This document shows, piece after piece, positions 6,753 to 50,929 of a stretch of DNA of 64,000 nt (position 1 is the stretch's first letter; each line of letters begins with the position of its first letter). The translations under genes and the position numbers were made by a program. Source of the DNA: Galaxea fascicularis (taxonomy: Eukaryota; Cnidaria; Anthozoa; Scleractinia; Euphylliidae); assembly GCA_948470475.1 (NCBI GenBank), contig OX419344.1, forward strand, positions 21,761,725 through 21,825,724, given 5' to 3'. The notes under the pieces were generated by a model. The model was not told where the DNA came from and ran no database searches. It saw only the letters and a list, made by a program, of their open reading frames with translations.

Positions 6753-9700
6753 GCAGAGAGATGGAAAACCAAGGTGGAAAATTTGACTCGACAAAACCAG
6801 CAGCTTCAGGAACAGCTGTTTGACTTTAAATCCAAGTTCAACAATCAGCAAGAGGAGCTCTCCTCCACTCAGCGCCGGCTTCGCGAACGAGAATGGGAGG
6901 TAGAATCCCTTCGGCGCGAGCTCAACACCAAGATCAGCTCTGTGGACAGGATAAGAACCGAAAAGATGGTGATCGAGAAGGAACTCGTGATGCTGAGAGA
7001 TCAGATGACCAGTCAAGTTTCCCAGGTCCAGGTTCTGGAGTCCTCTCCCGACGACATGGAGATGTTGTTCTTGCGAGAGACTGTTTCTCAACTGGAAATC
7101 GAGAGCAAGAATGCGGTCGACGAGAGAGACATGCTGCAGGTCGAGCTATCTGCGTTACAGGCCAAGTTTGCGCAGCTACAGGATGATTGCGATCGATACC
7201 GTAGACAATCCGAGATTGCGGGAAAGACGGGCAGCTTGACCATTAGCCGGTATGAGGTGCAAGTTCAGAACGCTGTGAAGCAGAGAGAATCTTTCAAACA
7301 GCAACTCGATGACCTTAGAGAGGAGTTAAAGAAGGCTAGAGAAACGATTTCTCGCTTGCAGCGTGATGTCTTGCAGAGCCAGAATGACGCTAACAAGTAC
7401 AAGGAAGAGGCTGTTTTGAAGACACATCGAATAGAGAGTCTTCAAAACCAAAACACGAGCCTTGAGGAGAGTTTAGAGAAGCTCAAGTCAGAGTTATCCA
7501 AGTGCCAAACAACGGTAGATGTACAGAAACGGCAGCTTCTGACCTTGCAAGAAACGATCGCGCTTAATGAGAAAACCATCCGAGAATACGAAGCCACGGT
7601 CAAGACGCTGCATGAGGAAAAAGAGACCATCCAAAGGGAACTAGTCGTGGTGAATGGAAAATTCTCAAACCTCCAAGCATCCCAAAGCAAACTTCAAGAG
7701 CGCGTGAAAGAATGGGAATCGGTGGAGGTACAACTTCGGAAGCGAGTAGGCGAGCTTGAGACCGAGTTGGAAGTGCAGAAGGAAAGAGGTCCCGACAAGG
7801 TGGATGGACAGCTCGTCAGCAGGGTGGAAGATCTCCAGTCCCGGTTAGATGAATCCGTGATGTCAGTGACAGACCTTCAAGGACGATATGAAATTGTCAT
7901 TAGGGAAAGGGATGAACTAGGAAAGGTTGTTGAGAACCTCAACTCTAAGATGGTAACCACAACCGATTCGCTGCGAAGTGTACAAGAGGAGAAGGCGGAA
8001 TTGGAACGTGCTGCAACCACTGATCGTAATAGAATTTCAAGGCTAGAGGTTCAGTTGGAAAGCGTTACTAAAGCAAGAGACAGATACAAATCAGAGCTTG
8101 ATTCTGAGAAGAATAAAGTTGGCCAGATGAAGAAGGAGTTAATGGAGTTGCAACAAGAGTTGTCTGAGAGCAGAAGAGCAGTTGAACGGCTAAACGGAGA
8201 CCTGGAGAAAAGAGACAAAAACATTGCAGAGCTCAAGGTTAAAGTGACATCGCTGGAAGCAAAGGTTGATGACTACCGAGAAGAAAGTGAAAAGTTGGAA
8301 AGAAGAATCCATTTGCTGGAGAATGAAGTTGAAGAACTGCGCTCTGAACTGATGGAGATGCAGAAGCGATTGGGCGACTCCGAGACAAACTACAAGGTCA
8401 CAGCTGAAGAAAGAGACAGGATCAACGAGGAGCTGCAAAAGGTGTACAAGGACATGTCTAACTTACAGTCTGACTACAACGTCGTGGAGCAACAAAGGAA
8501 CGACTTTGAACATCAACTGTCGATATTGAGAAACAAAATCAAAAAACTGGAGGATGAGCTCAGCCAGGCGAATAGGGAAAATTCGGTGTTAGATATTGAG
8601 GTACAAGAACTTCGAACAACTAAAGCTAGGAGCACAGAGGAGATTGAGTCTATGAAGAACAAGCTTGCTGACTTGAAGAAACTAGCTGAAGCCTACAAGA
8701 AAGAGATCGCAGAAAGAGATAACTCAATCGAGCAACTCAGAGGTGAACTGGCTGCTGTAACATCAGATAAGGATAACACACTCGCGGAAATCAGTCGCTT
8801 TCGTAATGAGAACGATATTCTTCAGGAAGAAAACAAACAGCTACAAAGAGAACTTGGCGCAAGCAAGGATGAATTAATGAAATTATCTTCCTTGTATGAT
8901 ACTGCAACCCAAAGCAAAGAGCTCCTCCAGACAGATTTTGAAGTTGTTCAGATGAAAGTGTCCGATCTTGAGTCAACATACATGGATTTCGAAGAACGCG
9001 GTAAAGATGCAGGCGTTCTTTTAGAAGAGGAGCGACAAAGGAATGCGGAGCTGGAGACGACCGTGCGTGACCTTACCGATAGAGTGAAATCGTTGGAGAG
9101 TCAGCTGAATGAGAGACAAAGGGAAGTTGACAAGTTGGAGAACGACATGGATGTGGCTGAAGAAAAAATGCTTTCACTGAACATTGAGATTGAGAAGATT
9201 AATGAGGAGAAAAGCAAAGAGTATCAGAAGCTTTTGGCAACGGAAAGCAAGTTAAAAGAAGTGGAAAAAGATCTTGATGCCGCTAGTGATGACAAGGACC
9301 GAGCGGAAAAAGAACTTTACGCCTTTCAAAATAAGGTGTCTAAGCAAGAAACTCAGCTTGAGACCTGTCGTAGACAGATAGTGCAACTGCGAGAACAACT
9401 GGACGCTGCCAACAAGAAAGTCCTTGAAAGTCAGGAACGCTTTGTTCAGATAGAAAGTAAATCAGCGCAACACGAGAAGTTTGGCGAAACACTAAATGCC
9501 CTCATAGGAAGAAAGGACAAAACGATCGATGAGTTGAACAACAAGATTAAACAGCTTCAAGATGAGTTGGACAAAACCAAACGACAATTAAACAAGAACA
9601 CTGCCACATACGATGTACTGAAGACTGAAAAAGAAGAGCTGTTGAAGAGGATTACTGTCCTTCAAAGCAGACTTGACGACACAGATCATGACATTAGAGC

Positions 9701-12700
9701 ACTGAAGCAAAATCGCCAAGAGCTCTTACGTGATATCAGTTCAAGAGATCACAAAATTACCATCACTGAGACGCACCTCACCAGCGTGACGAAGGAACGA
9801 GACCACTATAAATCCGAAGGACTCGCATTGAGAGATGACTGTCGCAAGGCGAAGGAAGAGCTAATAAACACTAGAAACAGTTTATTGGAGAAAGACAGGA
9901 TCATTAACACCCACGTCAAGGACATTCAAGACAAAGCGAACTTGATAGACAGCCTAACTAATTCCAAACAAAATCTTGGAGATGAGTTGACGAACGTAAA
10001 GAAAGAACTCGAGAACACCCGAGTTTCCAGCCAAGAGAGGATCCGAGATTTACAAGGTCAAATACAGCAAGCAAACATCAAAGTTTCTAAGTTGGAGGTG
10101 AATGTGACAACGTTGAACCGGCAAGGTCAACTGAGTGAGAAAGATCGGAAACAGTACGATGACAAACTATTTGAAGCTGAGAATTTGTACAAAGCCACCC
10201 AGGGTCGCGAGGCCGATTTGAGAAGTGAAGTTGAAGTCCGTAATACGAGGATCGTCAAGATGGAGGCGGATTACAAGAAAGCACAGAAGCGTGTGTTTGA
10301 GTTAGAACACGAGACGACACAACTTCAGAAAACAGTGAGTGAGCTTCACAAAGCCAGACAGAGAATCGATCGAGAGAAAGCTGATTTGAAAGACGACCTT
10401 GTCAACGTCAACGCCAGGATCTCAGAGCTAGAGCTGAAATCTGATTACGACGACAAGGAGGTTGCTTCGCTGAAGAAGCAGCTTGAAGGAGCTCTTCAGA
10501 GGTCTTCGGGTGTCAGCCGCGAGGACTACTTAAAGCAAGAACAGCAGTTAGTGGAGTTGAAGTTGATCGCAGAGACAGCTCAAGACAGGCTGAACGAAAA
10601 GGACAACCTTATACGACAGCTGGAATCAGCTAGAACATACCTCGAAGACCAGCTGGAGTCTCTGAAGGGTGTCCTCAAAGCCAACGAGGAGGACGTCGAG
10701 AGACTCAAACATGAGGTCGGCAGCCTACAGGGGGAAAATATCGAGCTGAATAAAGTCATCAGTGAGCTTCACAGTGACTTAAAGAAGTTGACGCTGGTGA
10801 GAGAACGCCTTCAAAATGAGCTTGATAATCAAGGAAAGAAGATGGCGTCGGTGGAGGAGCAAATTGCACAGCTCATAAAAGCCGATGAAGGTAACAAAGA
10901 GAAGATCACTGAGCTGCGATCCTTATTAAACGAAAGTCGCGAGCAGAACACGATTCAGCAAAAGACCAACACTGACCTCCAAAGTAAAGTTGACTCCGTG
11001 GAGAAAGACGTGGACCATAAGACCAAGCTTATTGACGATCTTAGACAAAGTAAGAAGACCTTGGAAAACGAGATTGAGGAGTTGAGGAAGAGACTCCGTG
11101 AGTTACAAAACGACCACAATGTCATGGCGCGCGATAAGGAAGAGGTTGAGAGCAGCTTCAAGTTGATCTCCGAGAAGACGACATTAATGGAAGACTCGTA
11201 TGAAACCAGCAAAGGTGACGTGAGAAGACTGACTGAGCAGGTAGCCACCTTACAAGGAAGGCTTACTGACGCTGAGGGCGAAATAAGAGTGCACCAGGAA
11301 AAAGAGAGAGATTTGCTGGAGAAGGTAAGAAACTATCACGCGCAACTTTCCAAACTGGAATCCACAAACGAAATTCAGAGCGAAAGGATTATGGTCTTGG
11401 AGCAAGATGTGTTGTCCTTGAAGGAGGAAATAACAAATCTCTTGAACGATCGTGACCGTGCCGTCCGAGAGCTGTTGATTGTTACTAAAGAAGTAGAAGA
11501 GAGAACTACTGAGTACACGCGCTTGAAGAAAGCCCTTGACATCGCAAACAAGGAGAAGGAAGCGATGGCGGTGCAACTTGAGGAACAAGTCAATGTGATG
11601 TCGCAGAATGAGACGCAGCTTCTCAATACTGAACTTCAGCTTCAAGAGTTTATGGTACGTGGTGACGACACTGATGCCCAACCCAAAGACAGCATCAAAG
11701 CCGAGAGAGACTCGCTTCAAAGAGAGGTGCATGTACTGAGACAGGAAGTGTCCTCCATCCAAACCACCCTGGATAAAGCTCAACGAAGGAAGGATGACTT
11801 GGAGAAGGAGAACTTTGCCCTGCGTAAGCAAACCACAGAGCTTGAAATGAAAGTGAAGGCTCTTGATCACGAAAACGAAGACCTCAATCGTGAGCTAATC
11901 AAGGATCAAAAGAGAATAAGTGTACTGGAGGGAGAAATCCATCGGCTTAACGTGGACAAGAACAACCTCCTCGGGGAGCTGGAGAAAACAAGGGGTGTGG
12001 TGGACAAGCAGCGAGACGAGAACGTGTTGCTGCAGAGAGAGATTTCCGAGCTTAGATCCATAGTTGACAACTTTGACAAAACCATGGAGGAGAACAACAA
12101 GCAGATCGAATGGTACCGATCGACTAATAAGAATCTTGAGGAGGAGGTTACAAACCTGAAACGAAGAATAGCAAATTACAGAGAAGATTACGATAAAGCT
12201 CAGCACGATATGGCGGCCCTCACATTAAAGGTTCAAGAATTCGAATCCAAAGTTGATACTCTCAAACACAGTCTTGACCTTGCTGAAAATGAGAAAGACA
12301 AGCTGAAACAAGAAAAGGCAACGATTCTGACTTCACTGAATGACTATAAGGCCAACTTTGCCAATGCCAAGAGGGAGGTGGACAGGCTGCAGAACGAGGT
12401 ACTTTCAATAAACCGCAAACTCACTTATCTTCAAGCAAGAAATGAGACATTAGAAGAAGAGAGGGACCGGCTAAAGAAGGAAATATCCGAATTAAAGAGG
12501 GAGAACGCTGAATTAAGAGCACGACTTAACGCTCTCCAATCTGACAGAGATCGACTTCAAAACGAGATCACTGTAATAAACAAGAAATACGTAGACATAC
12601 AAACAGTGCAAACAGATAGGCGGGAAAAGAAACCAAACGATGCGTCCACTTTTAAGCGACTCAAGGATTTGGAAGAATCGTACCGGAAGGTTTTGAATGA

Positions 12701-15700
12701 GAAGGAAGATGGCGAAAGAAGGTACCTTGATAGTAAAAGAAGGATATCAAAACTCGAGTTGGAGCTTGGAGATTGCAGTCGAATTATCCAGTCCTTAGAA
12801 CACGATCTGTCATTAAAAGTGAAACGGATATCTGACTTGGAGGACAGTCTCTCTGAGCTTCATGGCAGAGATGTGGTGGATGAGGGTGATTATAAGGCTC
12901 TACGTAAGAAAGTGGTTAGCCTGGAACAAGAGCTACAATCTACAAAGAATAAAGTGTTTCGCTTAGAAGCTTACAAGACATCCCATGAAGAGAAGCTAAA
13001 GGAACTACAAGAAGACCTTCTCGCCAGTCAGCAAAAGACTGCGCAAACGGAGGCTATGCTACAGACGAGTCAAGAACAACTAAGTGCGCAACAAAAGGAA
13101 CTGTTAGAGGCCCTCAAGAAAATGGCCGACTGGGAATCAGCCTACAAGTCCGCCAACAACGCCAAGATCGAGCTTCAACGAACTGTTCAGACCTCGCAGA
13201 GCAGAATTGTTTCCCTGGAGGAAGAGTTGCAGAACCAGATGAAAGAGAATGCCCAGCTCAAGGGAGCGCTTGATCAGACACGAACAAGGAATGATAACCT
13301 CAGAGAAGACATCAATAACCTGCAAAAGAAATTGATAGAACAGCAGAAGTTTTACGAGGAACAAATTCGCGAACTGGTTGAAAAAAAGGCGATCATCGAG
13401 AGGCTTCAGGAAGAAAACGAGTATCTGGAAAGTGAGAAAGCAGAGCTGAAGGAGGAACTCGGTCGCGTACGAACGGAACTCGAGAAAACTCTCATGGAAC
13501 ATCGAGACACGAAGTTTGAACTCCAAAAGCTTCAAATCCACTACAATGAGTTAGAGGGTACGATCCGAATACTGAAGGACGAGAACGAGCGGCTTAAAAT
13601 GGAGCTTGCCTCTCTTAAGAAGCTATACGATGAGCTCAAAGTTTCTCGCGAAGAGACGATCGCCGTTCAGAGCGTTTCAACTGTAGAAGCAGCCGCCCCA
13701 GACATGTTCAGCGCTGATCTAAGCGACGAGTATGAAACCATCAGGATGGAACGAGATACTCTCAAGCGAGAAAACAATGCGTTGCAAGAGAAAGTTGCCG
13801 GATTGGAAAATTCCTTAGAGGAGGTCAAGCAAGAGAGACGGAAACTGCAGGACAAGGTGCTTGAACTGCAGAAAACAGTGTCCGAGAAGACTCAAGAAAT
13901 ACAAATCTTAACGGCAGAAAACAAGAAGATAACGCTAGAGCTACAAGCCGTCAGACGCCGCCTTGAGGATTTACAAGAGGAAGCCACGGACTGGGGCCAG
14001 GAGAGGGATTTGCTGGTGAAAGAAGTTGAATCCATGCAAAGAAAGCTGCATGATCTTGTGTTGGAAAGCCAGAAGGAAAAAGTCTCTGAAGTTTCCTCCG
14101 AACAGATATTTACAACTATGGAGGCCGATTTTAAGAAACTGCAAGAACGCGAGGCTGAACTTCAACTGGAACTTTTGGCAGCGTTGAAGAAAGTGTCCAC
14201 ACTAGAGCACGACTTGGGGACGGAGAGGGAAAAAAATGGAGGACTTCAGAGTGCAAACCGATTGTTGGAGGACAGAGTCACCACACTCAAACGAGAGGTT
14301 GTGGAGTACCAAACGAGGATCTCCAAGATTGAGTTAGACTATGAGCACATTCGCGAGCGGAATAAAGAGCTACTCAATCAGGTGGCCGAACTTGAGGGCC
14401 AACTCGAGACCGTTAAAGATTCAAGCAAGTTGTCACAGCAAGGCAAGTCCGATCTGGAGAATGAGATAACTTCTCTCAGAACTAAAGTAAAGAAAATGCA
14501 GATTCAGATTGAAGAAGACAAGAGAGTTCAGGAGAATCTGAAGGCTCAACTTCATGATTATAAAGACATGGGCGATAACCAGTCTAGAGAATTCTCTGGT
14601 CGCGTCAACGAACTAAGAATCGAGATCGAAACATATCGTAAGGAGATCATGGATAAAGAACGTGTGATCAAAGACATGCTGAACAAACAGGCCGATTTAG
14701 AAGACGACATTCATCGACTTCGACGAGATCTCCAGAGCAAGCAGGTAGAGTGCGAAGACTACATCAAAGATCTTGAGGGAAACAACCAACAAAAAGCAGA
14801 CATGGAAATCGAGATCAACACGCTGCGAGGACAAATACGAAACTTCGAGATTCTTCTTGAGGAGCAGGATAAGGACAAGAGCGAGTTGAAACTGAACATC
14901 AACGAAATTGTCAGCAAACATACCAATCAAAGCAATGACCTCAAGAAGCAGATTAACGATGCAACGAAACAAGTAGAAATTTGTAAGCGGGAGATCATTG
15001 AAAAGGAGACTATTATTAGAGACCTTAGAGAACGGATGTCTCAAGTGGAACATCAGCTTCACATCACCAAGACGGAGTTGGATTCCAGAGAAAATGATTT
15101 TGAAGATCACGTGAAGGACTTAGAGGACACTAAAAAGGAGAAGTCAGATTTGGAAGTAGAGTTGCTGGCGCTGAAGAGCAAGATTACCAAGTTGAGTGTA
15201 CAAATTGATACTGAGAAGGCCGAGAAAGTTCACCTACAATCACAGCTGGTGGAAGCGAAGACCCGCGGAGATAAAGAGTCAACTGGTCATGCTAAATTTG
15301 TGTCTGAGTTACAGACTAAACTTGAAAATGCCAAGAGAGAGATCAACGTCAAAGAGGATGAGCTTGAGCACTTGAAATACGAGCTGGAAGTGACAAGAAG
15401 AGATCTTCTTTCCAAGGATGGAGAGTTCAAGATTTCATTAGAAAAAATCGAGCAGATCACCAAAGAAAAATCGGAACTGACTGTGGAGATAATGTCGCTC
15501 CGAGAGAAGGTCATCGTTCTTGAAGGGGACGTGCAGAAGGAGAGGGTCGGAAGAGAAGGGCTTGAAAGACAAGTCATTGAGTCCACAGCTAAAGGTGAGA
15601 CGGACGCCCAGTTCATGAGCGAACAGATCGTGGAAATACAGACAAGAGTCGAAAGCTACAAGAAAGAAATAATTGAGAAGGAAACTATCATAGAAAAGTT

Positions 15701-21660: not shown

Positions 21661-21664
21661 GATT

Positions 21665-22042: not shown

Positions 22043-22082
22043 CCGGTTGATCCAGTGAAAACTAGATTGCCGGCGTCGGAAG

Positions 22083-25508: not shown

Positions 25509-25510
25509 TA

Positions 25511-25867: not shown

Positions 25868-28405
25868 CTTTATTTAAACACGGTAAAATTCATCAGGTGA
25901 ATTACAATTTAAAATACAATTACATAATTATTTCTAATAACAATAAACGTACGCTTAAAAAGTCTCTACAGTAAAATACTATTCTAAACTAAACCTGTTT
26001 TCCATGAATGCCGTGTATTTAACTTAATTATATTTAACTAAAATGAAGGTTTAATAATTGCTTAAAAAGATCTAGAGATTTTACTTGTCTTAGATTGCAG
26101 GGTGGACTGTTCCAGAGAGTTGCACCTCTATAGCTAAAGCTCCTTTTTAGGTAGTTGGTTCTGGGTAAAGGGACATTTAATTTATTTGTAGAGTCTCTTG
26201 AGACATATCCTGACGTAGTGCGCTCAGTGAACATAGTGGATAAGTAGTCAGGAGTGAGATCATTAAGAGCTTTAAACACCATTAAAGCTACATGAATTTG
26301 ATGTTGGGCATTTAGGTCTTTCCATCCAAGCTGTCGTAACAAGTACGCAGCGTCAGCATCATAGGAGGAGGAAGTCAAAACGCGGGCAGCACGATCTGAA
26401 GCTTTTGTAATTTTTCGAAGAGCGTTTTGCCGCAATTCCCCCAGACAATACTACAGTAATCAAAATGGGGTTGTATTAAGGCATTGTAGATGTAATGTAG
26501 TATATCTGGTGGAACTAAAGGTCTAATTCGCTTTATGGCACCAATGCCGGAGGTAATCTTTTTGGACAGTTTGTGGATATGACTATGCCATGCCATGTTA
26601 TCATCAATAAGAATCCAAAGTGATTTAGTAGTGGATACTCGTTCTATAGAAACATTATCTGTCGAAGGTTCGAGGGATTCAGATAAAGTACTCAGTTTCT
26701 GTCTAGAGCCAATTAACATAAACTCAGTTTTAGTCGTATTCAGAGTAAGTTTGTTGCAGAGAAGCCATTTGTTGATGTTATTTAGATCACAAGTCAGACT
26801 AGTTTGTATTGAGTTTAAGTCTGTGCTAGCGTATGTTATGTGAGTATCGTCTGCATACATTCTAGGTTGGCAGAATGATAAACAATTTGGCAAATCATTG
26901 ATATAGATCAAAAATAGGAGAGGGCCAAGGATAGTTCCCTGAGGGACCCCACAACCCAGAGAACAATAGAAAGCGAACCGTTAACAACACATTTCTGAGT
27001 ACGGTTGCTCAGGTACGACTTAAACCAATCATAAGCAGGCTCCTGTATCCCATACAGACTAAGTTTAGCTAAGAGAACATCGTGATCAACGGTATCAAAT
27101 GCTTTTTTCAAGTCTGGGAAAACCACGGCATTTACATAACCGCGATCGATATTGAAAGCCTAGCTGTCAGTCGCTTCAATAAGAGCAGTGACAGTCGAGT
27201 GCAAGGATCGAAAACCTGATTGTTGGTTAATGATAATCGCTTCATTAGCCAAAAAAACTATACAATTGATCGTACACTATTCTCTCGAACACTTTAGCTA
27301 CTACTGAGATAACAGAGATCGGCCGATAATTATTCACATCAGTTCGCTCACCTTGTTTAAATAATGGTGTCACCCTAGCGCATTTCCAGTCGTCTGGAAA
27401 TAAACCAGAACTTAGAGACTTATTGAAAATGTTACATAAAGGGATCGAGATAAGATCGGCACATTCCCGAATTAGTTTGGCGGAAATATTATCCAGACCC
27501 GTTGCTTTGGATTTAGATAATTTGTTTAGGAGAGAAAAAACATTGCCACTACTAATCGGGAGCGAGTTCGCGTTCAGTTTTAATTCTTTTACAGACGCAT
27601 TGTTTTTCTGACGAGACGTGAGTTCATTAATAATTTGCCAGGTTTTGCGTAAATCGCCTTTAGACTGAAGAAATGCATTAGCATAATACAATGACTTGGC
27701 AGATTTAACTTCTTCATTGATCTTATTACGCAGCTTTTTGCACACAGCCCAGTCTAAAGGATCGTTAGACTTTACCGCTTTCTGTTTGGCAACATCGCGA
27801 TCGCGCATACCTTTCCGCAGGTCTGATGTGATCCAAGGGACCTTGCCCGACCTAACACGTTTTGTTTTGATTGGAGCATGGCTGTTCACAATAGTCAGAA
27901 ATTTAGCTTTCCAGTCAGCCCACGAAACGTTCGGGTCATCACTGGTACAAGACCAATCCTGTCGAGAAATGTCACTGCGAAAGTTCTCCCTGTTAAAATT
28001 ACAAAAATTTCTGAAAGTTTTAGTGTAATGCCCCTTGAAAGCAAACTCCGGTGATAGTTTACGATAAACATAAATAAGGCTGTGATCACTGATGCCAACA
28101 TGCAAAACTCCTGAACAGACTACCCTGTTAATACAGTTTGTAAATATTACATCAATTAACGACGATGATGATTCAGCAATACGAGTTGGCTCAGTTATGA
28201 GTTGCTGTAGCCCATACTTGATATCAGAAATTTCACAAAGTAAGCGTGTATTGGAGTCGAACTGGGTAGAGGCCAGATTACAATTCAAGTCACCCGTCAG
28301 ATAGTACTCAAGACCGAGAGAATCCAATTTTCCGATGAGGGTCTCATAGTGCGAGAAAATTTCGACTGAATCGAATTTCGGTCGCCTGTATGCGATTAAT
28401 GGTGG
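25829..28405 (-). pseudogene. CR1-type non-LTR retrotransposon, 5'-truncated and frameshifted
   Basis: On the minus strand this starts inside the apurinic-type endonuclease domain (TGDLNCNL, then DVIFTN and GISDHS, about 28290-28050). It continues through the reverse transcriptase: NNYRPISVIS about 27330, DLKKAFDTVDH about 27100, GVPQGTILGPLLF about 26940, YADD about 26845, and the C-terminal thumb region to about 26034. It ends in a (TTGA)n tail. The N-terminal half of the endonuclease is absent, with the break near 28405. Inside there is a nonsense codon near 27165 and a frameshift near 26960, so no intact protein can be made. The motifs place it in the CR1/Jockey superfamily. Confidence 0.88.
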
Positions 28406-37800: not shown

Positions 37801-38300
37801 TTGAACTCAAAATTAATTCGACTCGAGATGATTTTATCACGAAAGTTGTTTGAGTTAAACTAGATTGCAATCTAAAAATTTAATGTTTTCCTTAAAGGGA
37901 GTGTCTCTGAGAAATACATCTACCTCAGCTTCCATTTCTAAAGTACATGTCGTGCCTGATATTGAAATGTTTCCCCTGGGCCTACAGCAAAATATGACAA
38001 GCTCTTGTTTAAGACTTTGAAGTTTTTAATTTGAATTGAGTTGATCAGTTTTCAAAAAAATCCTTAAGAAACTGAACCTTTTAATTTCGAGGTCATATTC
38101 AGGGCGAAACAGAAATGCGGCCTGCTCCTCTGGCGATTAAATACCGTACAGTTGACGTATATAGTTATCCAGAGCTTATTTCCATAGCAGTTGCGGTCAG
38201 CAAAGTACAAAGAAAGCGATTTGATATAAAACTTGGTTCCGTTTCAGTTGCGGTGGATAAGGAATAATTAAGTATTTAGCATGATCGGCTATACTTTTGG
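34875..38300. other. Intergenic DNA; one weak MITE candidate
   Basis: No exon could be supported. The frame at 36963-37307 is Cys-rich at its start but matches nothing I know. A possible small palindromic element lies at about 36042-36165 (cgtttacatgaa against ttcatgtaaac). The rest shows nothing recognisable. Confidence 0.4.
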
Positions 38301-38420
38301 TAAATAATGCGTATGAAAGAGATCATATGTGAACTGCGGATATGAAATCAAATGAAGAATAATTGTCGCAGTTGTGATCGCAATTTTTTCAATTGCGTAA
38401 AGAAGCCTGAAAAAATTCAG

Positions 38421-38471
38421 GACTTCAAAGGGGATCGAACCCGTGAGCTCGCGATTCCGGTGCGATGCTCT

Positions 38472-38491
<20 letters not shown>
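38421..38491 (-). other. tRNA-like segment, array unit 1
   Basis: Read on the minus strand it has a TAGCTCAGTTGGTAGAGC D-arm/A-box and a GGTTCGATCCC T-arm/B-box, with acceptor-like ends GGCTTCA and TGAAGTC. The B-box side of the stem is weakened (cccctttgaag). It is best read as a tRNA-derived SINE head, not a functional tRNA. Confidence 0.7.
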
Positions 38492-38512
<21 letters not shown>

Positions 38513-38670
38513 ATTTTGGGGTTCATATATTCCCGTGAGAGCTATGTAAGTGAATAATGCAAATGAAAGAGATCACATGTGAACTGCGGATATGAAATCA
38601 AATGAAGAATAATTGTCGCAGTTGTGATCGCAATTTTTTCAATTGCGTAAAGAAGCCTGAAAAAATTCAG

Positions 38671-38721
38671 GACTTCAAAGGGGATCGAACCCGTGAGCTC
38701 GCGATTCCGGTGCGATGCTCT

Positions 38722-38741
<20 letters not shown>
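38671..38741 (-). other. tRNA-like segment, array unit 2
   Basis: Same sequence as the unit 1 segment, displaced by 250 bases. A-box and B-box are kept, and the acceptor stem has the same mismatch. Confidence 0.7.
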
Positions 38742-38762
<21 letters not shown>

Positions 38763-38917
38763 ATTTTGGGGTTCATATATTCCCGTGAGAGCTATGTAAG
38801 TGAATAATGCATATGAAAGAGATCGTATGTGAACTGCGGATATGAAATCAAATGAAGAATGATCGTCGCAGTTGTGATCGCAATTTTTGCAATTGCGTAA
38901 AGAGGCCTGAAGAAATT

Positions 38918-39124
38918 ATTCACTTACATATCTCTCACGGGAATATATGAACCCCAAATTGACCAACTCCCAACGTCAGTGGCTTAATAGTTCAGTTGGT
39001 AGAGCATCGCACGGGAATCGCGAGCTCACGGGTTCGATCCCCTTTGAAGTCCTGAATTTTTTCAGGCTTCTTTACGCAATTGAAAAAATTGCGATCACGA
39101 CTGCGACGATCATCCTTCATTTGA
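38918..39124 (+). repeat. Inverted copy of the tRNA-like SINE unit
   Basis: An oppositely oriented, more diverged copy of the 250-base unit, joined head-on to unit 3. The tRNA-like part lies at 38981-39051, with D-arm TAGTTCAGTTGGTAGAGC and B-box GGTTCGATCCC. Together with the minus-strand units it makes a large imperfect palindrome. Confidence 0.85.
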
Positions 39125-40160: not shown

Positions 40161-40175
40161 CATGTAATATTTCAG
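40160..40175 (+). other. Possible 3' splice acceptor in the gene 2 5' UTR
   Basis: The sequence catgtaatatttcag followed by gtcgtggg has the form of an intron end with a branch-like taat. It would put a non-coding 5' exon upstream and start the coding exon at 40176. This is sequence form only; no transcript evidence is available. Confidence 0.4.
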
Positions 40176-40272
40176 GTCGTGGGACGATAGAGTCAAGCGA
40201 TTTTGAGTCAATCAAGGACGTCATATCACCGACTTTTCAGAGCGAGGGACCGACTGAAGTGTATCGAACATC

Positions 40273-40617
40273 ATGTCTCAGCGTCGATCCTCGGCAAGGG
40301 ACCCGTCTCAAACGAACGAAACAAGGACGGTAATTAAGGATGAACAGGGTGGTATCGCCCTGATAACAGAGACCAACCATGAATGGGCGGAAGAGTACAA
40401 AAATTTGCTCATGGAATTTCAGCGCTTGAAAGACGAGTACGATGCTATGGAGCAGAAATATCAGGAAACTCAGAAAGAGAATGTGAAGGTGAAGAGGCAC
40501 ATGGAATTATCTGAGGTAAAGTTCACTCGAGAAAAGAACGGTTGGATGAAACAGAAGGAGGACCTCAATGGACAGATTGAGAAGCTGCGCAAAGAACTTC
40601 GCGAAAAGAGCGTCAAG
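40273..40617 (+). CDS. Gene 2 coding exon 1
   Basis: 345 bases, 115 codons, ending in phase 0 at the donor AAG|GTAATT. It starts MSQRRSSARD, a polar basic head, and enters coiled coil from about residue 45 (EWAEEYKNLLMEFQRL). Without splicing, the frame would run into an AT-rich intron and stop soon after. Confidence 0.88.
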
Positions 40618-43600
40618 GTAATTAATTCTCTAATTTATTTGCTTCACAAAAAAAACAGGGCACAATAAAAATGGCAGCTCTATTTTGCTATGTGGCTAGA
40701 AATGATTCCGTCACCTTAAGAGGAGGAAAGCCTTTAGTTTTTACCAAATTGCACTAAGACAGGACAGTGAAGAGAAATTGATATAACTTAAGTTTTGATA
40801 TGATAAGACTACATGTATGGTAAGTGGAGATGTGATTAACCTCATTGTATGTAGAACAGGCCACAATTCTTTTGCATTTGTTAATCTTAACATTTTTGTT
40901 TTCCGGGGATATTAAAACACCCTTATTAACATTTGAGTTGATAGAGCGCTTTTCAATTAGGTGCCCTAGTAGTATACAGAATAGCAGTTCTACGTCGGGT
41001 GGATCATTTGGATCATTTAGATCCACATGGTATGTGACATTTGGAGACTGTAAGAAATAAAACAATGACGTCATGATCCACCTGACGTAGAACCGCTATT
41101 CTGTATACTACTTGTCCCAAACACGAAAAAACAAAAGTTTTTCTGCATACAATCACAACAGAGGGAAACAGCACAGTGAGCCAATCAGAATTCGAAGAAA
41201 TCACAAGTAGAGATCAATATTTTGTAAATTAGACTTTTTAGTAATCTTAAGGAGGCTGGAAAGGGTTTTTAGCTGCACCCGCGCGCGCAATCTGCACATG
41301 CCATAATTAAGATGCACGCGTCAGCTGAATGAATCAAAATCAAGAACACCGCAAGTTAAAAATCGCGCAAACCGGAAATAAAATCTGCGGAAAACATTTG
41401 TTTTTTGCTCGAAATTTTGCTCGGTGACTATCTTGATTTTTTGCATGCACGTACCATTCACGATGGCACTTCAAATATAACAGTTTGGAGAAAAATCATC
41501 TAGTAGAATTTTCTGTAAACCATACAATGCGTTTTTTAAAATGCATTAAATTCTACTAGATAATTTTTTTTTCATACTGCCTGAAAAGTTAAAGAATTTA
41601 GGGATGATTTACAAAAACTGACATTTAGAGGACCTTTGTGAACCTGAATCGAGAGCGAAATCGAGAGCGAATAATCTGATTGTTTTAGTATAAATCTACT
41701 AGTCGTTCAAAACTAAACAAGTAAATTTATCTAAACTATCCCCGCAGACACTCTGAAAACGCGCAGAAGCGGCCTCCATTTTGTTGACAAACGCTTCTCC
41801 CTGTCTATCGCAAAATACATAGCGAGTAGCATAGCCAATAAGAGACCGGCATTCGTGGATTTATACTGAAAAGCAGTATTATATTCGTTTACTGTTACAG
41901 GTGGGTGACTTGCAGAGGGTGTTAGTTGACGCCCAGAAGAAAGCGGACGCACGTAAGGAGGAGCTTCAGACCAGAACCAAGCAAGTTGAGAGGCTGGAAC
42001 TTATCATCAGCGATCTTCAAAACAAGGTTTTAAACAGGAGTTTTACTGCGTACACCACAAAACCGCAATACACTAATCTGATATTGATATATCCGAGCTA
42101 TGAATCGCATGAAGGGTTTAATTACGATGAAACCTGTAAACATTAAAGACGTTTTTTCTCCTTTTCCCTGCGGTTTAATCTCACTGGAAGACACTGACTG
42201 ACGAATGTAGGACACGGCAAAGTGTATAAGGGTTATTTAACAGCGCGATGAAATCGTCCGCAACCTAAGCGTTACTACGAAAAGTCGATTTGGTGATTTA
42301 CTGACTGGTTGATCGGTCTATTAATTAGAATTAGCTGACTGACTGACTGATTGACTGAACTATCGTTTGATTGATTCTCAGGTCGTGCCCGACCTAAAAC
42401 AGAAGCTGAACAAATCTGAGGTCGACCTTGAAGTCGTTCAGAAGAGGAGCATCGAGCTGACTATCGACCTTGATCGTGCTGAAGAGCAGCATAACGTGGA
42501 TGAACAGACAATCGAGAAGATGCGCCACGAAAAGAACGCACTCATGGAGAAATTGACCAGGGCCGAGCGTGAGATCACAGTGGCCGAGGATGCACGGCAC
42601 AGAGCCGAAGAGCAGGTTACTATGCTGCAGGACTCAGAAAAAACAGTGCGTGAAAAGAATAGTAAATTGGAATTAGATCTGTTGTCGTCGCAAGAAAGAA
42701 TTCGAGAACTGGAGAACGACCTTAACAAGCGGCTTGCAGAACCAGAGATGAAGAGCTACAACATCACTGTTGTAGAGAGCGAACCTGTCTTGGAATCTGC
42801 CCCTCCTGGGTTCTCATTTGCCAATAAAGGACTTAATGACGAGAACGAGATGCTCACAAAGAGGGTAAAAGAACTGACTGACAGAGTGAAACGACTTGAA
42901 GGTGAGAAATCTTAAGAGTAGGACAGTTTCCGGTAGGAATATCAGAAATTAATGGCGTCAATTAGGAAAGCACCGGTAATTAGTTATAGTTAGAGGTTTG
43001 TTTACAGACTGAGAAATCAGAACCCAGTTAAACATTATCAGAAACTACTGCAGGATAGCACGGGTTCAAAGCTCTCACTTGCTGGATGGTGATATTGTAG
43101 GATTCTATTCGAAAACTCGTCAATGTCAGCACCACCTTTTATAGACTCTAGATATTTATCATTAATCATCTTACTCGGATTTGGACAAACTTTCGTATTT
43201 TTGGCACATATAATGTCGAATAACATGAAAGTACTGGTCACCGCTTTCGTTTAAAATTTCTGTCGCACCGATTCGGCAATTAAAATCGCCTTATGGAGCA
43301 TTATGAACAGTATCAGAAGAGTGCTTTGGGAAAGAAGAGAAGAAAACGGAAACGGTGAAGAAATATAAAATAGGAATGTACTGTTTGAGTCGAACCAAAA
43401 TATATCATGTTTTTATTTTAGACGAGAACTACGAATTAAAGACAAAGGTTGTAGAAGTTTCCAAGGACATCAGCAAATGGAAGAACAAGTATGAAGACGA
43501 GACTAAAGAAAAGATGAAGATTGCTGCTCAGTTTGAAAATGAGAAGGAAAACTATAAGAGGCTGAAGAACGATTTCAATGATTTGACAAGTAGGCTGACC

Positions 43601-46600
43601 AGGGGGGAGAGGACGATCGAGTCGAACAATAAGGAAATAGAGAAGAGGGGCAAAATCATAGAAGATCTGAGAGCAAAAGTGTTCCAACTGGAGAAGGACG
43701 TTGATGATCGAGAGGACACGATTGCGAAGCTTGAATCGCAGGTGGAGGAACTGGATAAGGACATGGAACGTCTGCATGAGAACACTCTGGAATATCGACG
43801 AAAGTATGGCGATCTGGACAGCGATTACAAAGTCAGTGAAAAAGAGAAAGAATCCGTGCAGAGGGACCTTGATGAGGTGAGCAGGAAGATTGTTGAACTA
43901 GAGAGCAAATGGAAAGAATCCGGAGAAGAGAAAGCTTATTTTCAGAAAGAAAACACTGATCTCAAGCAGAAGTTAACGTGGTTGGAAGCCGAATTAGATA
44001 CCACTATTAAGAAAAAGACGGTGCTCGAGAATGATGTGCAGAATGGGACAGACAAGATAAGCAAGCAACGCTTGAGAGCAGAAAAATTGGAGAAGAAGCT
44101 GGCTCAAGTCCAGGACGAAACAGAGCACTATAAGAATGAGTCGGCGCAGAAGAACAACAAGTTAGACGAGTTGAACGACAAATTGTCAGATCTCAAATCA
44201 AAATACGATGCATGCGTAACAGATCTGTCAAATGCCCGAGCAGACTGCGATTATAAAGACGACGAGGTCAAGCACTTGAATAAGAAGCTGGACAACAAGG
44301 AAAACGACATTAGCAAGCTTGAAGCTCAAATGGAGAAACTAACGAAAGAGAGGGACAATGCTGAAGTAGAGCTGGCTGGGGTCCTTGAAAAACTTCAGCA
44401 CATGGAACCGAAAAGAATGGGCGATGAAGTCAAACCGATGGAAGTGTCTTACTCGTACAGCGCACCAACAATTGACTTTGAAGCCGACCTAGCACCTCTC
44501 CGACAGAGGATATACGAACTCGAAACTGAAAACAACAGGCTACAGAACAACGAACAACACCTCGAAAGTAACCTCAAAAAGGAAGTAGACAACATCGCTT
44601 CACTGGAGAGAGATCTGAAGCGTGCCAACGCCGAAAACGAGGGTTTGGACAGGAAGGTAGTGGAAATGAAGAATAAAATAACTGACCTGGAGAAAGAAGA
44701 AGACGAGCTTATGGATACCAACAAGGACCTAAGAGAAAAGCTAGATGATCTCAGCCCACAGGTCGAGAAGCTGCAGAAAAGGATAGAGACACTGATTCTT
44801 GAAAGAGACAGGTTGAAGGATTATCTCAGCGACTCGAACGCAAGGCTTACCCAGAGCAAAGAGGATTACAACAACAAAAATCTTGATCTCTCAGAACAGG
44901 TGAAAGTCAACTCCACTCTTGGAAAGACAGTAAAGAAGCACGAAGTCAACCTAGAGTCACTGGCACAAAAATGCAAACAACTGGAGGAAGAACTGGAAAA
45001 TTTAAGACCTCAACTGAGAGCAGCTTTGACCAAGAATGAAACACTGGAAGCCGACATCAAGGAGTTGGATTCACGCAACAAACTTCTAAGGGGAAAAGTC
45101 GATGACCTGCAAAAGGACATTCTAGAAGAGATTGAAGCCAAGGAACGTCTTCAACAGGATGTTGACTCTTTATCTTACAAGTTGAACGTCACTGAGACAA
45201 ACAACAAGACCCTTGTCAAACAGAGAAACGATTTGCAAAGCCAGGTGGATGAGTTAGAGACCAAGCACAGAAAGCTTAAGCCAGAACTTGAGCAAACCCG
45301 CAACAAGCTTAAAGAGAAAGATCGTATCATAAGTCGCTCTCAGTCTGATTTGAAAGAAAAAGATTCGCAGATAAATGTATACAAGCGAAAGATCACCTCT
45401 CTTGAAGAAACTGTCACGTCCTCCAGGAAAGAGGTAGAGGCCCATAAGAGTGCTAATGAAATCAATCGTAATCGTGTTAAGGAGCTTCAAACCCAGCTTA
45501 TGGAGATGAGCAACAACATGCAGTCTGTAGCCAACGTTTCCGTTGTTCAGTCGGCCCCACCCGTCAGCTTCAGGGAAGAGCGGATCCGCAGTAGCCCTGA
45601 TGAGAGAGTCCATGACTTGGAGGCCCTACTCAAAAAGAGCGAGGCTCGCGAGGATACACTTAGGGAGCAGTTGGCGCTCTACGAGAACCGTCTGCCTCAG
45701 TCAGAAGCAGAGGCAAAGAAAGCACAAGAGAAAGCAATCGAGAATCAGCACACGATCAACACACTGCAAAAAAAACTAGACGAAGGCAAGAAAATGATGG
45801 ATAGAAGTAACCGAGAAAAAGAAGATGCCAAAAAGGAGTGTGTGGAACTTCGTACGCAAGTGACAGTCTTGGAAACCAAGGCCGTAGCAGATACAAATGA
45901 AATTAAATTATTAGAGAGTCAGTTAGAGCAGGCCCATCGACGTCTGGAGGAGACACAAGAAAAACTGCTGGCTATTGACGAAGATCATATACATCTTCGC
46001 TTGGAATTAGAAACTCATGACAAAGAAAAGGAAGATCGGAATGCCGTGGCTAAAAGATTGCTGGACAAGAAGACAGACTTGGAAAACAAGGTGGAACTCT
46101 TGGAGTCTGCTCTGAAATCAACTCGAGAAGATAGTGATGCTCTTCGAGAAGATAGATCCAAGTTGCAACAAGATCTTAACGATTTAAAGCGGGTAACTTT
46201 GGTTGAATTGAAGAGAAATTTCACCCGGATGCAGGGTGAGAGAGACCGTGCCGTCGAAGAGGTCAAGGCGTTGCTTGCAAAAGTCGAAGACCTTGAAAAT
46301 CAGCTGGCAGAAGCCCAAGCCAAGAAAAAAGAGATGGAAAAGGATAACGATGATCAAGACGCTGAGATACGACAGTTGAAAAACGAAATTGAAATCAATC
46401 ATAAAAAGACAGAAGATCTAGAGGACAAGATCGAGGTATTGAATCTGGAACTCCAGCGGGACGAAAAAGACATCGATGAATTGAAGGAAGCCAAGCGCAG
46501 GCTTGAGGACGAGGTTGCAGACTTACAAGTCAAGCTTGCAGAGAAGCAAGATGTCATTAACATTGCGCCCGTGAATATTGCACAAGTGGACACACAGTAT

Positions 46601-49600
46601 GCAGCCGCACCAGGATTCGATTTTGGAGCAGATCCAGAGGCTCTAAAAGACCTTGAAGACGAAATCATCGATCTGAAAGAGAAGATGAAAAGAGGAGAAA
46701 TGGAATACGACCTCTTGCGTGAGCAATTGAACGATTACAAAAAGAAACTGGGTGACTCGGAGGGCAAGAATCATCGGTACGAGACCAACCTCAAGGATGC
46801 TGAAAGTCGCATTAAGGAACTTGAGACGAAGTTAGGGGGTTCATTAGATGAGCTAAGTGTAATGACTGACAGGTATGATTCCGTGGAACGTGAACTCGAG
46901 CTCTTGAGGGATGAGCTCCAGGATGCGCAGACTAAACTATCCACCGCCGAGGCGAACGTCGTTGCCGGGACAGCCAAACTGAATGCTCTAAAACAGCAAC
47001 TTGAGGCTGCACAGAAAGATCTGCTAGACAAAAATGACGACGTTGTCGAGAAACAGCGAAAAATCAACGAGCTTTATGCCATTCTAGAGAGCGGAGGCAA
47101 GGATTCCGATCGATTAAAGAAGGTTATCGAGGAGCTACGAGAAGATGTTGACACTAAAGACCGAGAGAACACAAGTCTGCAGAGAGACCTACGCCTTGCT
47201 GAAACCAATGTTGCCAAACTACGAACAGCGTTGGAAGAAATGGAAACAAAGTTACACGATACGGAGCATGAGCGAGAGGAAATTAAGATGAAGGCCGATG
47301 GACTGAGCGTAGAAATAGAAATGCGAGATCGTGCACTTGAGGAAGCTCACAGAGAAGTTGATGACTCACGGGATAAATTAAAGGCCGCTAAGAAAGAAAT
47401 CGATGCCCTTCGCAGTCAGCTCAGGGAAGCGAACGTTGGCTTAAAGGCCGCCAATGACGAAAAGAAGATTCTTGAAGCAAGAATTGCCGAGCTGCAGAAG
47501 ATAATTGAGCAGGTACGAAAAGAATTGACAGCCAAAACCACCGTGGTTGCTACAAAATCTGGGGTGAGTGATGTATACCTGGACGACCTGAGAAACAAGC
47601 TATCGGAATATCGTCAGAAATACCAGGATGTCTGTAACGAAAAGATGAAACTCGAGCTTGAACTTCGTGAGAAGGACGTGAAGATTTCTCAAGTATCTAG
47701 TCCGTCAGATGCATTACGCGAAGAGCGAGACCGCCTTAAAGACGAAGTTATCAATTTACAAGCTGCACTTAAAGAAAGTAAAAGGAACTGCCAAAAAGCT
47801 CAGAGGGAAGTCGAGGAACTCCAGCGCCGCTTAGTCTCTAAGGACAACGAAATTCAGCGCCTGGAGGATAAAATACGTAAACTTGAGGAAGAGAAAGAAA
47901 AATCGAAGAAGGACTACGCCAACCTAGAGAAAAAGAATTCCGACTTAAAAGTCGAGCACGAAAAGCTCAAGTATGAGAAGCAGAGAGTAGAGAATGAGCT
48001 TTCTCTTCTGAAGAAGAAATTTCAGGCCCTGCAAAACCAGTTGAATGCAGTGGATGTTCCCAAGCAAAATCAAGATGTGGTGAGTAGAAAGAAGTATCAA
48101 GAATTGGAAGCAAGTTGTCAGGACGCGCTTCGTGAAAAGGAAAGGGCTAAAAGTGACATGGCTGTTTATCGTACCAAGATGGCGAAATTAGAAGTTGATA
48201 TGAATGAGCAGAAAAGGGAGAAAGATGCTTTAGAGGACGAGGTGAATCGCTTGAAAACCAATGAAGCTGAGCTAAAAAACAAACTTCAAACTGCACGGGA
48301 CAGGCACAGGGAGGACAAAGACAAGAGTCTAGAATGGCGAAAAAGTAATTTCGCTCCCTTAGAACAGGAACTTCAGAGAGCCAAAGGACAAATTAAGAAG
48401 TTCGAGAAGACCTTTGCTGGCCAAGAGAAAGTAATCGAGGACTTGAAAGACGAACTTGCTGACCGCGACAAACAAATTGCCCAGTTGGAGGATGAACTGG
48501 AAAACCAGGATGACACTGATAGCGTACCCCTTGATTCGATTAGCATTGACTTCAGAGGAGACACACAAGCTCTTCAAAATGCTTTAGACGAAAAGGCTGA
48601 CGCTCTCAAAGAACTCCAGAAAGTTAAAAGCAAGCTCTGGACTCTGGAGCACGACACGGATATCCTGAAGACGAAAGAGGCTCAAAACCAAAAGATGGTT
48701 GACGAGGTGAACAGCATCAACGACAGACTAAAAGAAGAATTGCGCGAGCTAAAGAAAGGAAACTGGGATCAACAAGGATCTCACAGCAAGCTTGAACAAG
48801 AAAACAGTGAGCTCATTCGCCAAAGTAACGCTCTTAAAGAGGACAAGGAAGATCTTGAAAAAGACGTGGAGGAACTCCGTGATGAGCTCAATGATGTGAA
48901 GGCCGAAAATAGAAAAATCATGATGGAGAATAAGGAGCAGAAGCTTGAGATACAGCAGCTGGAGGTAAAACTGCATGAGTTGGAAATGGGACACAAGTTA
49001 GTAAAGGACGACAACGAAAAGATCCGAAATGATTTGTTGAGGACACAGGACGAGAATGCGGATCTTAAGTATAACCTGAACAAGCAAAATGACATCATCC
49101 AGGTGCAGACGGTGGCTGAAGTGGAGAGCTCTCTTCCGGTGGTTTTCGATGACGATGTGGATGGAGTGAGGAGAGATAAAGATAGGCTGCAAATCGAGTT
49201 GGAGGCTGTGGAAGACCAGATGAAACGTCTGCAAAATGAGTTAACAGAAGAGCAAAAAGAGAACGAGAAATTGCGGTATGAATTGACCGAGACCAGACGA
49301 AGACTTAAAGAAGACGAGGCAGAGGTCAAGACGCTAGACACTGAGGTGGATAACCTTCGCCATGAGCTCAAGCTTGCAAACCAGAACAATAGTGAGTTGC
49401 ACAACGAAAATGACGATCTCAAGGATGCAAGAGACAAAGGTCGGGCAGAAAACGAGGATTTGAAAGCAGAAATCAAGGATCTGGAGAAAGAACTTCAAAA
49501 GTTAAACAAGGAGAAGGCAGACCTGGAAAGGGAGCAAAAGAGAGCTGGTGAAGTGCTTTTGGTGAAGAGAAGACCTTCTAAAGATCTTTATAACGAGAAA

Positions 49601-50929
49601 GAGAAAAGGATCAGAGAGCTGGGAGAACAAGTCGCGCGACTGGAACGTGATATTCAGAAAGGTGGGGCTGAGATGTTAGCGCTCAAAGACGAGAATGAAG
49701 ATCTACATGAGAAGAACAAAGACCTCCGTGATGAAAACAACTACCTCCACGGCAAGATAACCCAGCTAGAGAATGAAGCAAGCAGGGATAACAAGAAAAT
49801 TGATGATCTCGAAAAGGAGATCCGAGAATTAGAAGATAGGCTCGGGAGTGAAAAGGGTGGAATGGATCCTGCCAGAGAAAAGGAGCTGATGATTGAGATA
49901 GATACACTCAATGACAGGAACAACAAACTTCAGAAGTATCTGGATCAGGCTAAGAAAGACAAGAATGACTTGAAAGTACAACTCGATGAGTACAATAGCA
50001 AGTTTGACGACAGCAACAAACAGTTGTCTGTGCAGATTACTTCACTTTACGGAGGTCAGAGTGAGATTTATAAGAAGGAAATTGAGGAGAAAGACGACAA
50101 AATTGAAAAGTTGCAGAAAGAGAAGATGGAGTTAGCCATTGAGTTAGAACGCCTGAAAGAGGAGTACGATGCAGCTAAAGCCAACCAGTCAGACCTTCAG
50201 AAGAAAAATGACGAACTACAGGGAGATAACAAGTCCTTGAGAGACGACAAGATCAAGCTGGATAACAAGCTCATGGAGGAGATGAATACGAACAAGGTCA
50301 AAACAGCTGAGTTGGAAGCCGAGCAGGATATTTTGAAGAACAAGATCAAAGAGAAAGAGGACCTTGTTAAGAAGTACGAAAAACAATTACAACAGCTCCG
50401 AGAACAGTTGGCCACTTCCGTACGCAGCGATCAAGCTTCTACCACCCTGGTCGTGGAGCGAAAACCCAGTGTGCGACAACATAGTTTGATGCTGTCCTAC
50501 CAGGAAGGGCTGATGAACAGATCCGGGTTGTACCGATCCATAAGCGAAACCAGTTTACCTAATGGCGACGTTTCCAGTTCAAGTGACCACTCTGAACTGG
50601 GCGAGGTCCTGAGTAAAGAGCTTCCGCATGGTAGAGGTAGAAGGTCCAGTGCACCCAGAGATCACATTGGCGAGATGGTGGAGGCCTCTGAAACCAAGCC
50701 CACAGAGTCCGAGCCAGACTATTCCACCATCTTGAGGAGCAGTACGCCAGCTGCTGACGAAGAGGAAAAGGAACGTCGGTATTCAGGTTATCAACGAGAC
50801 CGAGGCTCTACCAAAGACAGTGACAGATACAGAGGTAGCACTGACACCAGCAGGGATCGTGACAGGAGAACGTCCACAGATAAAGACAGGGGAAGGGATC
50901 GCAGCAGAGCTGAATGTCAGCAAAGCTAG
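40273..50929 (+). CDS. Giant coiled-coil protein 2, complete four-exon gene
   Basis: Joining 40273-40617, 41901-42026, 42382-42901 and 43422-50929 gives exactly 2,832 codons and a TAG stop (50927-50929). The start ATG at 40273 is supported by an in-frame TGA at 40255. Residues 1-50 are polar and non-helical. From about residue 45 to 2660 the protein is almost entirely heptad coiled coil. It is interrupted by hydrophobic/proline hinge segments near residues 280-310 (ESAPPGFSF), 670 (SAPTIDF), 1030 (SAPPVSF), 1381 (AAPGFDF), 1704 (SGVSDVY), 1880 (VVSRKKY), 2030 (SIDFRGD), 2222 (SSLPVVF), 2380 (SKDLY) and 2540 (SEIY). From about residue 2678 the tail is Ser/Arg/Asp-rich, with basophilic serine sites (RKPSV, RRSSAP) and an RD/RS-like end. 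There is no signal peptide, membrane span or enzyme motif. A cytoplasmic scaffold or filament role is likely but unproven. It is related in plan to the gene ending at 17738. Confidence 0.9.
40968..41112. mobile_element. MITE-like element in gene 2 intron 1
   Basis: A 39-base inverted pair begins agtagtatacagaatagc (40968-41006, and complement 41074-41112) and encloses about 67 bases. The arms differ by a few substitutions. The interior repeats the word ggatca. It is non-coding and wholly intronic. Confidence 0.75.
41489..41568. repeat. Imperfect hairpin in gene 2 intron 1
   Basis: aaaatcatctagtagaattt is inverted as aaattctactagataatttt about 36 bases on. It is a probable small palindromic repeat of AT-rich sequence. 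Confidence 0.5.
41901..42026 (+). CDS. Gene 2 coding exon 2
   Basis: 126 bases, 42 codons, phase 0 at both ends. The acceptor is ttactgttacag|GTG, and the donor AAG|GTTTTA is weaker than the others. It codes for an unbroken coiled-coil piece (VGDLQRVLVDAQKKAD...). Confidence 0.85.
42330..42358 (+). repeat. (CTGA)n simple repeat in gene 2 intron 2
   Basis: A run of ctga/ttga tetramers lies about 25 bases before the exon 3 acceptor, where the branch point would be expected. The CTGAC-like units resemble branch-site consensus, but that role is only possible, not shown. Confidence 0.55.
42382..42901 (+). CDS. Gene 2 coding exon 3
   Basis: 520 bases, entered in phase 0 after ttgattctcag and left in phase 1 at the strong donor GAAG|GTGAGA. 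The split codon joins G to AC of exon 4 to give Asp. It codes for coiled coil and contains the first hinge segment (ESAPPGFSF). Confidence 0.88.
43422..50929 (+). CDS. Gene 2 coding exon 4, giant last exon
   Basis: 7,508 bases including the stop. The acceptor gtttttattttag precedes ACGAGAACTACG, and the frame restored with the last G of exon 3 is open for 2,502 codons. It holds most of the rod, at least nine hinge segments and the charged Ser-rich tail. Confidence 0.9.

Follow-up and report, generated by a model that had tools for sequence, protein, structure and literature searches.

Locus and gene models

The window analysed here is a 64,000-nucleotide stretch of the Galaxea fascicularis genome (C10:21761725-21825724; genome of 416.6 Mb in 170 contigs) that contains two genes for giant coiled-coil proteins, gene 1 and gene 2, both on the plus strand. 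A preliminary description, made from the sequence alone, had placed them 22.5 kb apart with a giant last exon in each, and both points held, the spacer measuring 22,534 bp (17739-40272). It had also given the pair short early exons (seen in gene 2), long heptad rods, similar hinge segments and Ser-rich basic tails, and had suggested a tandem duplication with later divergence and repeat invasion of the spacer. We found gene 1 and gene 2 to be homologous members of a clustered family whose rods keep their core length and hinge positions at 23-32% identity (Table 1).

Gene 1 lies in an open frame at 6705-17738, within which a splice acceptor (TTTTCAG) immediately precedes 6753. The fragment P0011 was its sole close relative among the matches listed (two proteins listed, 2,489 candidates scored) and agreed with it at 79% across P0011's 2,375 aa. 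No upstream coding exon was found in window positions 1-6760 among the matches listed, and this interval plus 16.7 kb to its left gave no convincing candidate for a first exon. Beyond the core rod, gene 1 is lengthened by six repeats starting at residues 2628, 2744, 2860, 2969, 3085 and 3190, with a mutual identity of 22-47%; these account for much of its extra rod, and a motif search did not find the repeat unit in gene 2 or in paralogues C, D and E. The gene 1 reference used in some searches began in the intron, 16 codons ahead of the acceptor. The genome search lists a 4,279-aa open frame for C10:21777183-21778361, which is part of gene 1, versus 3,677 aa in other rows of that table.

The short early exons proposed for gene 2 proved to be three, all upstream of 43422, and together with the last exon they encode a full protein of 2,832 aa with no internal stops. 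Every internal junction is bordered by AG/GT, and the exons matched the coral orthologues P0001, P0003 and P0005 at 50-64% among the matches listed. Some searches used a gene 2 reference without exons 1-3 and with 38 intron codons ahead of the acceptor.

Table 1 Features of the window and additional family members in the genome. Positions are those of the window unless a contig is given.
Feature	Position	Strand	Basis or remark
Gene 1 giant last exon	6753-17738	+	3,661 aa plus stop; open frame, acceptor, P0011 match
Gene 1 core rod, residues 1 to about 2309	6753-13679	+	Collinear with gene 2 and paralogues C, D, E
Gene 1 distal hinge, residues 2297-2320 (VSREETIAVQSVSTVEAAAPDMFS)	13641-13712	+	Loop there in 6/6 paralogues
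Gene 1 rod extension, six protein-level repeats of 105-116 aa	14634-16658	+	Repeat comparison
Gene 1 tail, Ser/Thr-rich, basic (isoelectric point 9.4), ending ...SKTSEL	16698-17735	+	Sequence
Retrotransposon fragment	26375-26980	-	Reverse transcriptase match
Non-LTR (long terminal repeat) retrotransposon frame, 1,026 aa	30492-33572	-	Matches to reverse transcriptase and, weakly, to endonuclease
Gene 2 exon 1 (coding part)	40273-40617	+	Coral orthologue matches, splice borders
Gene 2 exon 2	41901-42026	+	Coral orthologue matches, splice borders
Gene 2 exon 3, with hinge 1 (YNITVVESEPVLESAPPGFSF, about 42742-42822)	42382-42901	+	Orthologue matches, heptad model
Gene 2 giant last exon	43422-50929	+	58-62% to gene-2-type coral proteins
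Gene 2 hinge 2 (VSYSYSAPTIDF)	44408-44479	+	Heptad model; AlphaFold2 low-confidence break
Gene 2 hinge 3 (VANVSVVQSAPPVSF)	45524-45601	+	Heptad model; AlphaFold2 low-confidence break
Gene 2 hinge 4 (VDTQYAAAPGFDFGAD)	46568-46636	+	Heptad model
Gene 2 distal hinge (VQTVAEVESSLPVVFDDD)	49103-49168	+	Position of gene 1 distal hinge
Gene 2 C-terminal CQQS, CaaX-like	50915-50926	+	Kept among gene-2-type sequences
Paralogue D	C10:21737.6-21746.6k	-	Head to head with gene 1, some 15 kb beyond the left edge of the window
Paralogue C	C10:22.80 Mb	+	Candidate first exon at 22802571
Paralogue E	C10:23.03 Mb	-	3,099-aa frame
Paralogue F	C3:1.65 Mb		Three frames

Homology of the two genes

Composition-adjusted BLASTP with SEG filtering aligned gene 1 and gene 2 at E 6e-86 over 2,323 residues. 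Raw E-values are not trustworthy here because both proteins also match bacterial SMC models (E 1e-65 to 1e-110, all below the cut-offs), and we therefore tested whether the similarity is coherent at a single offset. The five best ungapped diagonals had offsets of 81, 84, 82, 83 and 79 (z 18.2 to 8.5) and fell inside gene 1 residues 394-2311, about 1,900 residues, while the sixth was off the band (offset -350, z 7.3). Against a reversed gene 2 the z values reached at most 6.4 and the offsets were scattered. Diagonal height alone is insufficient, since the fish protein P0038 reached 313 against paralogue E and the best gene 1-gene 2 diagonal 324. We accordingly summed the segments near one offset and compared the best band with the next. 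This ratio was 1.62 (z 5.0) for gene 1 and gene 2. None of 11 unrelated long coiled coils, P0038 included, exceeded 1.07 with gene 1 or 1.16 with gene 2, and their z stayed at or below 3.1; five members of another coral coiled-coil family reached no more than 1.15 and 1.16, respectively. The similarity is thus better than that between either gene and unrelated coiled coils, the comparison on which the preliminary description had staked its case. The profile-profile comparison it had suggested, with a coiled-coil control, gave E 1.8e-77 over 2,424 columns, versus E 3.3e-13 over 702 columns for the unrelated coral family.

Convergence, in which heptad periodicity and composition bias would make unrelated genes look alike, gains something from the misleading raw scores against SMC models and from the near-equal P0038 diagonal. 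Set against the one coherent offset with its 11 negative controls and reversed control, the profile comparison with its control, the shared hinge positions described below and the adjacency of the genes, it is scarcely credible. Offset coherence and the profile-profile comparison rule out coiled-coil bias as the source of the similarity, and we consider the homology of gene 1 and gene 2 secure on these sequence comparisons.

In the joint alignment the two genes shared 2,150 aligned residues at 23.1% identity, in line with the strong divergence that had been suggested, and were separated by 22 gaps, none longer than 6 residues. Their net length difference across gene 1 residues 120-2300 was 2. 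The other paralogues differed from gene 1 by -4 (D), -11 (E), -38 (F) and 41 (C).

Family members and their relationships

The genome contains at least six family genes, five of them within 1.3 Mb of one contig. At least four members beyond gene 1 and gene 2 were found by genome search with gene 2 and paralogue E. Gene 1, gene 2, C and E each have one giant frame, D is split into frames of 2,231 and 581 aa, and F into three. Core identities of the other five paralogues to gene 1 were 23-32%. The same genome search returned a 416-aa frame at C3:11.93 Mb and, at C10:23.54 Mb, a 1,193-aa open frame (L029), mostly coiled coil, which contains a stretch resembling a hinge (VVVQSAAPLAQIEEDF) and may be a short, derived member of the family.

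In the unrooted tree gene 1 was sister to D (Shimodaira-Hasegawa-like approximate likelihood ratio test 96.6, ultrafast bootstrap 96), and the gene-2-type sequences formed one clade on the longest internal branch (1.66); gene 2 is the most distant of the six paralogues. Among E, C, F and the anemone sequence the deep branching was poorly supported (ultrafast bootstrap 36-71). The proposed tandem duplication is therefore supported as common descent by duplication and not as a single event that made this pair, since gene 1 pairs with D and the tree lends no support to a duplication private to gene 1 and gene 2. Gene 1 was also rejected as an orthologue of group C, the genome's own C gene having been found at 70% to P0012.

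The nearest named relatives of both window genes are from stony corals. Gene 2 and paralogue C have orthologues there; the gene-2-type proteins (P0001-P0010) include Desmophyllum and Oculina, the C-type proteins include Stylophora, Montipora and Oculina, and P0019 comes from the sea anemone Actinia. Four sources, one of them Oculina, carry a gene-2 type and a C type on equal-sized contigs (P0003/P0021, P0004/P0023, P0005/P0025, P0008/P0027), and this agreement in contig size suggests an old linkage of the two types. A profile search with four members listed 29 proteins, among which the 12 family members scored at least 584 bits and the 17 others at most 86 bits. Among the matches listed, every family member with a named source was hexacoral, and these matches do not prove absence outside hexacorals. 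The family is a real one of a known kind, giant coiled-coil rods, and we found no published description of it in the open-access literature.

Relatives differed in their distances. Paralogue C was 96.7% to its nearest database relative, P0031, and gene 1 just 79-80% to P0011; if P0031 and P0011 share one species, gene 1 would be evolving much faster than C. Desmophyllum P0001 was 63% to Oculina's P0003 and 61% to gene 2, although Desmophyllum and Oculina are both named stony corals, and these near-equal distances may reflect hidden paralogy or uneven rates. A second coral giant coiled-coil family (P0033, P0036, P0037, P0048 and also P0043), apparently unrelated, was 68-76% to Oculina LOC144664605 and has a conserved LIAAF motif at its end.

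Rods and hinges

The long heptad rods seen at first reading were borne out in both genes, with 98% of the gene 1 rod and 93% of the gene 2 rod in heptads and LIVM fractions of 0.59-0.61 at core positions versus 0.08-0.11 elsewhere. Across ten family rods the ranges were 92-99% and 0.54-0.61 versus 0.08-0.11; the heptad model was trained on these same ten rods, and all of these figures are descriptive only.

The proposed similarity of hinge segments was borne out, with IAVQSVSTVEAAAPDMF in gene 1 occupying the place of VQTVAEVESSLPVVF in gene 2. In gene 1 numbering, hinges or heptad breaks recurred near residue 161 (mostly breaks) and near 2317 (loops) in all six paralogues, near 1961 in five and near 94 in four. 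Among 1,000 rotations, the fractions that reached the three observed hinge-position statistics were 0, 0.006 and 0.003. A motif in the hinges, SAPxF, which was picked after hinge inspection, occurs four times in gene 2, twice in D, once each in gene 1 and E, and not in C or F. Shuffled gene 2 gave an expectation of 0.004, 7/9 gene-2-type sequences tested had 2-4 copies, and 2/16 non-family proteins matched, once each.

The AlphaFold2 model built for 899 gene 2 residues (monomer, six sequences, predicted template modelling score 0.29) consisted of long helices interrupted by two extended breaks, 352-391 and 724-760, which are hinges 2 and 3, where block confidence (predicted local distance difference test) was 26-48. 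Three short breaks of 5-10 residues (168-177, 523-527 and 832-837) fell where the heptad model is loop-free.

A charge period of 14 residues would fit rods packed side by side. It exceeded the 99% null in E, F, D, the genome's own C and P0022, and in 1/10 outside controls; gene 1 barely passed, with 2/200 shuffles reaching its value. Secondary diagonals hinted at a 432-residue super-repeat that was weak in profile self-comparison, and we do not claim it.

Tails and C-terminal ends

Both tails are Ser/Thr-rich (26-27%), as the preliminary description had it, and only that of gene 1 is basic: its net charge is +6, and the gene 2 tail has an isoelectric point of 6.5 and a net charge of -1. Nor are the tails recognisably homologous, with no match between gene-1-type and gene-2-type tails better than E 0.25. 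Ahead of the C-terminal end, gene-2-type tails were less conserved (33-62% among four sequences).

The ends themselves differ by type. TSEL is common to gene 1 and P0011 only; it fits the class I PDZ ligand consensus and is a possible ligand of that class. A C(K/Q)Q(N/S) end occurs in 10 of the 11 gene-2-type sequences, gene 2 included, with P0003 the exception, and CQQS or CQQN ends gene 2, P0002 and P0001. The D, E and C frames have ends unrelated to this CaaX-like one. CKQX ends are reported farnesyltransferase targets, and the yeast reporter rows of that study read "+ 88" for CKQN and "+ 100" for CKQS, which we take as percent modified (PMC10320760). Judged from its sequence, the gene 2 end has about even odds of being farnesylated.

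Comparison with known systems

Pfam and NCBIfam scans of the known exons found no domain that names a known family, in agreement with the preliminary description; for gene 1 all domain negatives cover the giant exon only. What the family libraries returned were generic models of coiled coils; CENP-F_leu_zip, ATG16 and Fez1 were among those that exceeded their cut-offs, and such matches were uninformative as names. No solved structure matched at E 0.001.

CENP-F is a giant coiled coil with a farnesylated C-terminus. Gene 2 resembles it in its very long rod and CaaX-like box, and gene 1 exceeds the cut-off for CENP-F_leu_zip (PF10473; 93.6 bits vs 34.5). However, neither the N-terminal domain (PF10481) nor the C-terminal Rb-binding domain was found in the giant exons, gene 2 exons 1-3, P0001 or P0003, and PF10481 matches lie elsewhere in the genome, on C3 and C12.

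Myosin and paramyosin rods are coiled coils conserved in length and register, as the family rods are, but the latter had no motor domain among their Pfam matches and no 28-residue myosin-like charge peak above null. Intermediate filaments (lamins, nematocilins) likewise combine a rod with a tail; their rods are several times shorter than those of this family. The Filament model (PF00038) did not reach its cut-off of 40 (gene 1 31.7 bits, 19.5 bits; P0011 38.5 bits). Lamins also carry a CaaX box (PMC4448529). They differ further in their Ig tail domain, which was absent among the Pfam matches of the proteins studied here.

Rootletin (CROCC) offers the likeness of a long rod that could form fibres. 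A ciliary or cnidocyte filament of this type, added in hexacorals to striated rootlets or to supporting rods, would suit long register-constrained rods, and the 75 nm repeat of rootletin rods (PMC8435291) can be cited in its favour. The rootletin domain PF15035 was not found by Pfam in the known exons of either gene or in full-length relatives, yet PF15035 exons are present on contig C4 of the same genome, and we hold this reading to be improbable.

Golgin B1/giantin is likewise a giant coiled coil, and the source record of Stylophora P0016 calls that protein golgin subfamily B member 1-like. Under a golgin-like tether, rods held by a C-terminal membrane anchor would capture vesicles, with the hinges providing flexibility; two gene 2 hinges modelled as disordered and the CaaX-like end of gene-2 types are in keeping with this. 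That end is limited to gene-2 types, however, with unrelated ends in D, E and C, the automatic name of P0016 may rest on coiled-coil similarity, and a flexible tether would have no need of a rod that is almost constant in length. We regard a tether as unlikely, though somewhat less so than a rootlet-type filament.

A proposed register-constrained rod with different ends

The reading we prefer, at a probability of roughly 0.55, is a clustered family of giant cytoplasmic coiled-coil rods, constrained in register, with shared hinge positions and different C-terminal anchors. Of this, the homology, the family and its clustering are shown, as are the conserved core length and hinge positions among the paralogues of this genome. 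The family arose via repeated duplication, mostly inside one chromosomal region, and its protein core is a rod of about 2,300 residues with short hinges or heptad breaks at shared positions, roughly 340 nm long if a continuous coiled coil. Within this genome core length is kept within 2-41 residues in about 2,200 while two-thirds to three-quarters of the residues have changed, which argues for selection on axial register; register is probably what selection sees. We infer a coiled-coil oligomer whose rods most likely run alongside one another within a filament or scaffold of the cytoplasm, or reach across a defined distance. Members would then differ in how their ends attach: gene 1 by a longer, repeat-built rod and a PDZ-type end, gene 2 by a CaaX-like end through which, if farnesylated, the rod could be held at a membrane.

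The cytoplasmic rod or scaffold function is a prediction from sequence, and several observations weigh against this reading. Length conservation weakens further out, with net differences of 69 for P0022 and 203 for Actinia P0019 (one gap of 117), and gene 2 against P0019 fails the band test (offset 579, ratio 1.09), the best single diagonals of that pair agreeing at offsets -150 and -151. SAPxF was absent in 13/13 C-type sequences tested and in F, P0019, P0022, P0005 and P0007, and the 14-residue charge period fell below the 99% null in gene 2 and five other family sequences. As to the anchor, CQQS has 0 occurrences in PMC10320760, where CQQN was not searched for.

A bolder form, in which the paralogues would be hexacoral-specific cytoskeletal rods that co-assemble in register as one ruler with different ends (farnesyl, PDZ, lengthened), a class apart from intermediate filaments, myosin rods and rootlets, has in our estimate a small chance of being right. 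Giant coiled coils are usually dismissed as unalignable, and near-exact length conservation at 23% identity is a clean case of register, not sequence, being kept. If the preferred rods do form a structure, it would be an undescribed cytoskeletal or tethering system in corals and anemones, and clustered paralogues with different ends would let rod and anchor roles be separated.

Spacer and other window features

The retrotransposon frames with reverse transcriptase in the spacer (Table 1) bear out its invasion by repeats. The reverse transcriptase fragment adjoins a 411-aa frame (region 26375-28480, minus strand) that has no Pfam match and resembles the same kind of element. At 38303-39052 a 250-bp unit is repeated 2.5 times (96% matches) and contains tRNA-Ser(GGA)-like sequences, of which two are on the minus strand. 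Directly after the repeat comes a third, on the plus strand, and these repeats are possibly tRNA-derived. A good tRNA-Thr(GGT) gene (62.3 bits) lies at 63044-63116 on the minus strand.

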